A stretch of 52,868 nt of DNA from an uncultured Thiodictyon sp. (GTDB lineage: Bacteria; Pseudomonadota; Gammaproteobacteria; Chromatiales; Chromatiaceae), in assembly GCF_903946935.1 (NCBI RefSeq), contig NZ_CAJAXH010000156.1, positions 1 to 52,868 on the forward strand. Direction: 5' to 3'. Positions 49,423 to 50,733 of the stretch are shown here, piece by piece. Position numbers and translations under genes: made by a program. The notes below the pieces were generated by a model. The model was not told the origin of the DNA. It searched no databases and saw only the letters and a program-made list of their open reading frames with translations. Position 1 is the stretch's first letter. Each line of letters starts with the position of its first letter.

Positions 49423-49554
49423 CTCACGCCAAGGCGCCAAGACGCCAAGAAAAATCAAGGGCCTGTGGACAGCTTCCGAATCACCCGACGGGTGAGTCGC
49501 CAAGCGGCGATAACGCATTGAAAACCCTTGGCGAGCTTGGCGCCTTGGCGTGAG
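49423..49554. repeat. Inverted repeat element (CGCCAAGGCGCCAAG type)
   Basis: CTCACGCCAAGGCGCCAAGA (49423-49442) with further CGCCAAGA is matched by an inverted CTTGGCGCCTTGGCGTGAG (49536-49554), about 130 bp overall. This dyad type is common in proteobacterial and cyanobacterial intergenic DNA. It lies between the SDR and lexA 3' ends (convergent) and could fold in either transcript. Confidence 0.6.
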
Positions 49555-49571: not shown

Positions 49572-50198
49572 TCAGCGGTATGCGCGCATCTGCCCGACCA
49601 GCACGCCCTGGATCGCCACATCCTCGGGCGCGAAGCTGGCCGGCAACAGGGCTTGGTTAGCCGGCAGCAGGGTCACCCGCCCGGGCTCCTGTTTGATGCG
49701 CTTGAGCGTAGTCTCCTCCCCATGGATCAGGGCCACGACGATCTCGCCGTTGCGGGCGCTGTCGCGGTGCTCGATGACCACAAAGTCGCCATCCAGGATG
49801 CCGGCCTCGCACATGGAATCGCCGGTCACTTGCAGGACATAGCAGGGTCTGGCGGTGCGCAGGTGCGGCGGCACCGTCATGGTCTCGGCCTGAGGAAAGG
49901 CGTCGATCGGCCGGCCGGCGGCGATCTTGCCGAGAAACGGCAGGGTGTCCGGGGCGGGCGCCGGCGGGATCAGGCGGATGCCGCCATGCTGCCGGTCGAG
50001 CGGCTCCACCAAACCGGCGGCGATCAGGGCCTGCACGTGCTTGTGCAGCGACCCGCGCGAGCGCAGGCCAAGCAGCCGGCACAGCCCAGTCAGCGTGGGG
50101 GGCGGGGCGGACTCAGTGGCGCGCTCGCGCAACAAATCGAGCACAGCCTGTTGGCGCGGGGTCAGTCGGGTCACGATTCGTTCTCTTGTTGTTCTCAT
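49572..50198 (-). CDS. lexA: LexA repressor (complete, with DNA-binding domain)
   Basis: The 208-residue protein has a winged-helix N-terminus (RLTPRQQAVLDLLRERATES and SRGSLHKHVQALIAAGLVEP), a linker, and a LexA/S24 protease domain. The self-cleavage bond is Ala94-Gly95 (KIAAGRPI), with nucleophile Ser128 (GDSM) and general base Lys166 (TLKRIK). It should repress SOS genes and cleave itself when RecA filaments form. The start may be the ATG at 50198 or GTG at 50174; the latter gives MTRLTPRQQ, the more usual N-terminus, and places a GTTC-N7-GTTC site just upstream. A second LexA-like gene is divergent, 67 bp away. Confidence 0.9.
   Translation of the reverse strand: MRTTRERIVTRLTPRQQAVLDLLRERATESAPPPTLTGLCRLLGLRSRGSLHKHVQALIAAGLVEPLDRQHGGIRLIPPAPAPDTLPFLGKIAAGRPIDAFPQAETMTVPPHLRTARPCYVLQVTGDSMCEAGILDGDFVVIEHRDSARNGEIVVALIHGEETTLKRIKQEPGRVTLLPANQALLPASFAPEDVAIQGVLVGQMRAYR
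50180..50194. promoter_or_regulatory. Putative LexA operator 1 (GTTC-N7-GTTC)
   Basis: GTTCTCTTGTTGTTC: two GTTC half-sites 7 bases apart, the direct-repeat form described for alphaproteobacterial LexA. It overlaps the first codons of lexA if the ATG at 50198 is used, or lies 6 bases before the GTG at 50174. No CTGT-N8-ACAG box is present in the region. Confidence 0.5.
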
Positions 50199-50220
50199 TA
50201 TCTCTGCTAATCTCCACGGA

Positions 50221-50235
50221 GAACGAACCGAGAAC
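50221..50235. promoter_or_regulatory. Putative LexA operator 2 (GTTC-N7-GTTC, minus strand)
   Basis: GAACGAACCGAGAAC, the reverse complement of GTTC-N7-GTTC, 31 bases before the start of the second LexA-like gene. It mirrors operator 1 across the divergent promoter region (centres 41 bp apart). The mirrored pair suggests joint control of both genes. Confidence 0.5.
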
Positions 50236-50265
50236 GATCCACCCCCCTGCGCTGAGGTACACCAA

Positions 50266-50733
50266 ATGAATCCGAGCGTTGCCTACATCCTGCCGAAGCA
50301 TCACCATGTGACCTGGAATCCCGCCTTGGAGCCCCTGAGCCTCGGCCACGAGGCGGGCGTGGAGATCCCGCTGCTCGGGTATGTGACAGCGGGGCAGCCG
50401 GTGGAGATCCCGGAGGATCGCGCCACGGTCACGGTGCCACGCCACATGGTACGCAAAAACAGCTACGCCTTGCGGGTGCGCGGACACTCGATGATCGACG
50501 ACGCCATCCAGGACGGGGACATCATCGTCGTGGAGAGCCGCCAGAGCGCGGAAAACGGGGAGTCGGTCGTCGCCATGATCAACGGGGAGCGCGTCACCCT
50601 CAAACGCTTCTATGTGGAGGCGGACGGCATCCGGCTGCAACCGGCCAATCCGTCGATGATGCCCATCTATCTGCGCCATGCGGAACTGGAGATTCTCGGG
50701 ATCGTCTCCGGGGTCATCCGCTGCGGGGGGTGA
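50266..50733 (+). CDS. LexA/UmuD-like self-cleaving protease without DNA-binding domain
   Basis: The 155-residue protein consists of a short 30-residue tail and a complete LexA-type S24 protease domain: cleavage bond Ala42-Gly43 (YVTAGQPV), Ser75 (RGHSM), Lys113 (TLKRFY), and the conserved ending LEILGIVSGVIR. The winged-helix domain of LexA is absent. UmuD has the same layout, but umuC does not follow and the C-terminal domain looks closer to LexA (GIRLQPANPSMMPI). GAGGT precedes the ATG. It diverges from the full-length lexA, with two putative operators between. It could be a UmuD analogue, a LexA decoy forming mixed dimers, or an SOS timer. Catalytic residues are certain; the role is inferred. 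Confidence 0.8.
   Translation: MNPSVAYILPKHHHVTWNPALEPLSLGHEAGVEIPLLGYVTAGQPVEIPEDRATVTVPRHMVRKNSYALRVRGHSMIDDAIQDGDIIVVESRQSAENGESVVAMINGERVTLKRFYVEADGIRLQPANPSMMPIYLRHAELEILGIVSGVIRCGG

Follow-up and report, generated by a model that had tools for sequence, protein, structure and literature searches.

A LexA divergently paired with an HTH-less S24 autoprotease: a putative private SOS module in Gammaproteobacteria

Background

Among the RecA-triggered proteins of the bacterial chromosome that cleave themselves, LexA and UmuD are the classic examples. In this work, we analysed a divergent gene pair that encodes a complete LexA (P0002, hereafter LexA2) and a smaller protein (P0001) that is close to UmuD in several respects, i.e. 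an S24 domain without HTH, a predicted RecA-triggered self-cleavage and a short N-terminal arm. P0001 is unlike UmuD, which manages DNA polymerase V, in that it falls in a tree group of its own, has no umuC beside it in the stretch analysed and belongs to a family also present in genomes without UmuC match.

Other described systems share part of this organization. In Pseudomonas putida, LexA2 is reported to control the lexA2-imuA-imuB-imuC(dnaE2) operon (PMC3901139, PMC5261740). As in that case, a second LexA would directly control its own small damage-inducible unit, but here the target is an HTH-less S24 gene, which is divergent and associated with GTTC-N7-GTTC boxes. This direct repeat is given as the LexA box of Alphaproteobacteria and Caulobacter (PMC8565304, PMC9578287); the box found here is identical, whereas the host belongs to the Gammaproteobacteria. 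Duplication of lexA has been linked to motif divergence in the cited part of one of these sources (PMC8565304). The UmuDAb/DdrR system of Acinetobacter is likewise a divergent regulatory pair with one member related to UmuD (PMC7273328), but UmuDAb is reported to need its own N-terminal domain for repression (PMC4807011) and P0001 is devoid of HTH.

Operons of SRAP with a RecD-like helicase, which may also encode LexA and UmuCD (PMC3765255), are close to the cassettes of an HTH-less gene, RecD2 and SRAP reported below; in its cited part, that source sets apart neither an HTH-less LexA-like group nor a private LexA2. As SRAP operons are described there with LexA, the cassette may be already known under that name. 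Chromatiaceae are said to possess no LexA homologue (PMC3108266, cited part); LexA HTH matches over the cut-off were found here in the genomes of four Chromatiaceae/Thiorhodococcus-labelled loci and of one Thiodictyon-labelled locus. With subscription papers mostly outside the search, no literature was found, by title or start of abstract, on the HTH-less family or on a divergent LexA/HTH-less pair, and none was found that joins LexA with Thiodictyon.

Gene and protein architecture of the locus

The window, i.e. the whole stretch of DNA analysed (52,868 bases), carries two divergent ORFs, 49572-50198 (- strand) and 50266-50733 (+ strand), located where an earlier note on this DNA had placed them. 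The features of the locus are as follows.

49572..50174, - strand: P0002, full LexA (LexA2) from its likelier GTG start; the ORF reaches ATG 50198
50180..50196, + strand: predicted LexA2-type operator on the lexA side, GTTCTC-N5-GTTCTC, from sequence
50197..50202, - strand: possible -10 element of lexA2, GATAAT (read by eye, weak)
50205..50213, + strand: possible extended -10 element for the HTH-less gene, TGCTAATCT (by eye, weak)
50219..50235, - strand: predicted LexA2-type operator in mirrored orientation, nearer the HTH-less gene, from sequence
50266..50733, + strand: P0001, HTH-less S24 autoprotease gene, 155 aa (Pfam and homologues)
50389..50394, + strand: Ala42-Gly43 codons of P0001, predicted self-cleavage site
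50488..50490, + strand: Ser75 codon of P0001, predicted nucleophile
50602..50604, + strand: Lys113 codon of P0001, predicted general base

Pfam recognized in P0002 a LexA_DNA_bind domain (PF01726, residues 10-66, E 3.1e-9, 36.9 bits for a cut-off of 23.7) followed by a C-terminal Peptidase_S24 domain (residues 87-201, E 4.8e-26), with the catalytic set Ala94-Gly95, Ser128 and Lys166 (numbering from ATG 50198). In P0001, Pfam detected only Peptidase_S24 (PF00717, residues 35-147, E 3.4e-29) and no LexA DNA-binding domain, so that P0001 lacks the HTH expected of a LexA. The note's description of one complete LexA and one S24-only protein with Ala-Gly, Ser75 and Lys113 was thus borne out by Pfam and by the sequence. 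The two proteins share 41% identity across 120 residues of the S24 domain.

Against the NCBIfam lexA model (cut-off 110.95 bits), P0002 scored 144.2 bits, as a LexA does; P0001 reached 114.6 bits, yet over model positions 78-200 of 203 only, and stayed below the cut-off of the NCBIfam UmuD model (68.1 vs 110 bits). Since P0001 exceeds the curated LexA cut-off and not the UmuD one, automatic annotation may well name it LexA. The AlphaFold2 model of P0001 (mean pLDDT 78.8; residues 1-16 below 50) was closest to LexA (3k2z, E 6.9e-9), with a weaker match to UmuD' (4.5e-6).

As homologues of P0002 mostly begin aligning at about residue 10-12, GTG 50174 (VTRLTPRQQ...) is a likelier start than ATG 50198; the intergenic gap measures 91 bp with the former and 67 bp with the latter. 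In the 6.0 Mb genome to which the window belongs, four S24 matches were obtained, i.e. the pair, a canonical LexA and a UmuD. The canonical LexA is a 227-codon ORF with a CTG-N10-CAG box just ahead of its start, and umuD, followed by umuC, lies on another contig.

Predicted operators between the two genes

The pattern GTTCTC-N5-GTTCTC occurs twice in the window, both times between the two genes; the shorter GTTC-N7-GTTC gave five matches, both strands counted. At the scale of the 6.0 Mb genome, GTTCT-N6-GTTCT was found four times, two of them at the pair, and a backward control pattern five times. The mirrored operator is the best conserved stretch in an intergenic alignment of seven pairs, and letters like TGCTAATCT are present in most rows of the alignment of pairs. 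A promoter scan brought out neither of the two -10 elements read by eye, which leaves both weak.

Judged by sequence, the promoter of P0002 itself carries a predicted operator, as would be expected of a LexA. Similarly, the promoters of other LexA2 genes (L078-L106) contained an exact box in 21/29 cases vs 21/580 control windows, and a box with at most one mismatch in 25/29 vs 69/580. The two sites announced by the earlier note are therefore real, but the 67-bp promoter region in which it placed them contains just one, because the other falls inside the lexA ORF if this starts at ATG 50198; the 91-bp gap obtained with the GTG 50174 start contains both.

Distribution and phylogeny of the HTH-less family

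Within the window's family, 116 genomes were searched for the HTH-less gene with E up to 1e-40 as limit, and 27 of them carried it; G004 was left out of this count as it holds only a broken 84-aa remnant. Some genomes harbour several copies, a few of which are broken by stops. A scan of named genomes gave at least 529 stretches encoding a relative (full LexA proteins may be among them), of which the best 80 were studied, with 53-86% identity over the best segment. Their labels are mostly of Gammaproteobacteria, with some Zetaproteobacteria or Mariprofundaceae and one alphaproteobacterium. No LexA HTH was found in these 80 ORFs: at E up to 0.1, matches were short and inside the S24 part, LexA controls matching at 1e-10 or better.

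Residue conservation was assessed on 79 of the best 80 ORFs (one without start codon being dropped) together with P0001. Ala42, Gly43, Ser75 and Lys113 were invariant in 80/80 rows, and Trp17, in the N-terminal arm, was conserved in 76/80. In a tree of 101 S24 domains, 47 HTH-less rows lay on one side of a branch whose support (91/64) is not strong; the other groups comprised 32 P0002-type LexA (97/97), 13 UmuD (100/98) and 9 canonical LexA (99/93). With many rows relative to its columns and a warning of long branches from the program, the tree is unsure in its finer forks. As judged from these sequences, the P0001 family is a group of its own, apart from UmuD, canonical LexA and P0002-type LexA, and recent truncation of P0002 as the origin of P0001 is ruled out by the S24 tree.

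Other origins were also discarded. No PADLOC match at E 0.01 identified P0001 as a defence gene; relatives occurred in 2/17 viral candidates, at only 36-45% identity, which does not fit a phage origin; and the best 5000 plasmid records among the matches listed all had less than 60% identity, which does not fit a plasmid origin.

Conservation of the divergent pair

A full-length HTH-less gene and LexA2 occurred together in 13 distinct genomes, a figure that covers only those found here to carry both and is no census. The two genes were adjacent and divergent in 11 of the 13 (G000, G079, G107, G081, G070, G117, G118, G116, G122, G124 and G126), G107 being of the same genus as the window's genome by taxonomy, and unlinked in G018 and G101. 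Among the best 80 of at least 529 named loci, a divergent P0002-type LexA was found in five (L107, L108, L111, L135 and L178). In the order of G116 (record labelled Methylophaga), the HTH-less gene was present in 4/6 genomes and divergent from LexA2 in 4/4; with six genomes, i.e. fewer than the window's family alone, this is another order. Conservation of the pair, which the earlier note had proposed to check, is thus partial, divergence being kept in 11 of 13 genomes with both genes and in two orders.

A box with at most one mismatch lay between the genes in 11/11 divergent pairs, and at least one exact box in 10/11; in G122, where the gap is longer (about 280 bp), the boxes were on the side of LexA. 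In G018, a box preceded the unlinked HTH-less gene (GAACAAATAGAGAAC) and none was found at lexA2; with the genes unlinked, this position fits regulation in trans. In G101, also unlinked, a box was found at neither gene, a case against a universal link. A single origin of the pairing was rejected when the 13 rows (11 paired and 2 unlinked) were forced as a clade on the LexA2 tree (p-AU 0.003), so pairing either arose repeatedly or is ancient and was lost in places.

SOS control does not extend to the HTH-less family as a whole. Within about 150 bp of the HTH-less start, an exact GTTC-type box was found in 7 of the best 80 of at least 529 loci and absent in 73, which makes SOS control at best a trait of some lineages. 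Canonical CTG-type boxes ahead of HTH-less genes do not fill this role either: with at most one mismatch they occurred in 5 of the same best 80 (one exact), near the control value of 62/1600.

Global and private distribution of LexA2 boxes

Full-length P0002-type LexA (E <1e-57) was encoded in 50/116 family genomes, i.e. in 43/89 without and 7/27 with the HTH-less gene, and the two sets differ in where the boxes lie. In six relatives where P0002-type LexA occurs without the HTH-less gene, the recA promoter carried a GAAC-N7-GAAC box in 6/6 (three exact, three with one mismatch). In the seven genomes with both genes, exact boxes were found in 0/7 recA promoters, and 2/7 showed a match with one mismatch in the opposite orientation. 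In three genomes that carry the HTH-less gene but no LexA, no exact box was found at recA, and the single one-mismatch match overlapped the recA start.

Genome-wide, strong boxes numbered 73 vs 19 for the control in eight relatives that have P0002-type LexA but not the HTH-less gene, and 42 vs 57 in a set made up of G035 and the seven genomes carrying both genes; nine of these 42 were at the pair or ahead of the HTH-less gene. With this strict pattern, which weaker LexA2 targets could escape, the genomes that have both genes thus showed no surplus of strong boxes outside the pair. From these distributions within the window's family, LexA2 would seem to act globally in genomes devoid of the HTH-less gene and may be private in those that have it. 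In relatives without HTH-less gene, P0002-type LexA, judged by its predicted boxes, looks like a global SOS repressor. The pair would then provide an example of LexA regulon shrinking, with recA boxes in relatives and none exact where both genes occur.

A GTTC-N7-GTTC LexA that is apparently a global SOS repressor in Gammaproteobacteria can be consulted at LexA2 loci L084-L106 and recA loci L250-L254 and L258.

Genes beside the HTH-less gene

The genes found beside the HTH-less gene are not the same from one lineage to another, an argument against a constant partner gene. In G028, G076 and G105, HTH-less copies, some of them broken, head cassettes with a RecD2 helicase and SRAP (Pfam being run on one cassette); more than one copy of the cassette was present in G028 and G076. 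These HTH-less S24-RecD2-SRAP cassettes can be seen at L058 3154-6647 and at like places in L059-L062 and L064. In G102, the HTH-less gene lies near umuD-umuC, and umuC-like fragments were found near it in one of the best 80 of at least 529 named loci.

A Mut7-C-type gene was located 3' of the HTH-less gene, at 120 bp or less and on the same strand, in 11 of the best 80 of at least 529 loci. The Mut7-C RNase domain was assigned by Pfam on the L124 gene (4995-5989), and 10 further named loci have a like gene. As this gene closely follows or overlaps the HTH-less gene, a link between DNA-damage sensing and RNA cleavage is possible. In three of the best 80 of at least 529 loci, the next gene encodes 318-324 aa and overlaps the HTH-less gene by 8 bases (L170 5455-6411, L176 3101-4060 and L181 2754-3728); it presumably resembles TrpD2/YbiB. 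At L048 1-5126, pPIWI_RE three-gene-island domains (Z, Y and REase) were noticed near an HTH-less copy and umuC-like fragments. Association with FtsK or RarA was seen in a single genome, G018.

Proposed function and alternative explanations

We propose, with a probability of about 60% and on the strength of the sequence comparisons, that the pair is a private RecA-triggered SOS module, with LexA2 as repressor both of itself and of a self-cleaving, UmuD-like effector devoid of HTH. LexA2, made up of wHTH and S24 domains, would bind the two mirrored GTTC-N7-GTTC sites and repress both its own gene and the divergent one. Upon formation of RecA filaments, LexA2 would cleave itself and both promoters would open. 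The HTH-less protein would then be made, and its RecA-stimulated self-cleavage at Ala42-Gly43 would shed a 42-residue arm, as in UmuD. The processed domain would be a second-stage effector acting on the damage-tolerance machinery, through a partner that is not UmuC in general.

The domain make-up, the invariant catalytic residues, the conserved divergence, the conserved boxes and the shifted distribution of strong boxes were all computed here, and the shared boxes give good support to the regulatory two-gene switch put forward by the earlier note. Binding of LexA2, repression of both genes and the effector role of the HTH-less protein are what we infer from these sequences; RecA-stimulated self-cleavage of both proteins is expected by analogy with the LexA and UmuD families. 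The module is favoured by the damage-response genes that the HTH-less family adjoins elsewhere (RecD2/SRAP cassettes; umuD-umuC in G102), and many HTH-less relatives in contexts without clear damage link, e.g. beside a Mut7-C-type gene, count against it.

If P0001 were simply a UmuD, the protein managing DNA polymerase V, that had become separated from umuC, this would agree with the UmuD architecture that its sequence suggests, i.e. a self-cleaving S24 domain without HTH, and with the co-occurrence of UmuC: DUF4113 matches over the cut-off were found in 16/27 genomes with the HTH-less gene vs 6/89 without (Fisher p 2.9e-8, ignoring relatedness). The same search gave no DUF4113 match in 11/27 genomes with the HTH-less gene, and LexA2 was present with no such match in G079, G107, G081, G070 and G018. 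Moreover, P0001 scores below the UmuD cut-off and its family is separate from UmuD on the S24 tree (91/64 for the HTH-less branch, 100/98 for the UmuD fork). No umuC lies beside P0001 in the window, and the umuC of this genome has a umuD of its own. A plain UmuD identity is thus ruled out by tree, context and co-occurrence, and even a displaced UmuD is very improbable. The second gene is therefore not the plain umuD that the earlier note had named as fatal to its reading, and its statement that umuC is absent is right for the locus, although the genome has umuD-umuC on another contig.

It is also unlikely that the HTH-less protein acts mainly as a modulator of LexA2, through mixed S24 dimers or as a RecA-filament decoy tuning the depth or length of repression. 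The recurrent adjacency and shared operators of the two genes would suit such a role, as would the S24 resemblance of P0001 to P0002, but full-length P0002-type LexA was absent in 20/27 family genomes with the HTH-less gene (including G038, with a P0002-type remnant of residues 91-207 without HTH), and a LexA HTH over the cut-off was absent in 11/27. Nine of the latter (G033, G049, G053, G066, G090, G092, G098, G100 and G105) are outside the 83 matching genomes, G092 and G100 being only 73-76% complete, and G058 and G069 had sub-threshold matches only. In G033, a genome given as 100% complete, no S24 match other than the HTH-less protein was obtained, so the family cannot need LexA in general. 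These absences tell against dimerisation or competition with LexA as the core function, which had been suggested from the sequence; a secondary effect on LexA2 may exist inside paired lineages. Almost no credence can be given to P0001 as a degenerate, functionless LexA copy duplicated beside its parent: it adjoins a LexA, is roughly as large as the C-terminal domain of a LexA and, in G038, a genuine LexA2 remnant without HTH does exist, but the catalytic residues are invariant throughout the alignment and P0001 belongs to its own tree group, as no recent copy of P0002 would.

Beyond the private module itself, we tentatively put forward, at somewhat less than even odds, that the HTH-less proteins form an SOS autoprotease class of their own, the third with LexA and UmuD, and serve as a stand-alone damage-triggered effector able to act without LexA and polymerase V. 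It would have come under a dedicated divergent LexA in at least two orders, the global regulon of that LexA having shrunk to one pair in the Chromatiaceae-type lineage. If so, this third group would be an overlooked damage-response effector, probably filed under the name LexA.

Additional observations

UmuD proteins with an N-terminal extension bearing a PRGG.RPGAGRK-like basic motif before the S24 domain were noticed at L005 3920-4537 and in several of L272-L280. Just downstream of lexA2, at 49423-49554 of the window, lies a 132-bp element with perfect 19-nt inverted ends (CTCACGCCAAGGCGCCAAG), the core of which is also found on both flanks of the canonical lexA (L006 3809-3932 and 4740-4862); its presence beside both lexA genes points to a MITE-like repeat common to the two.
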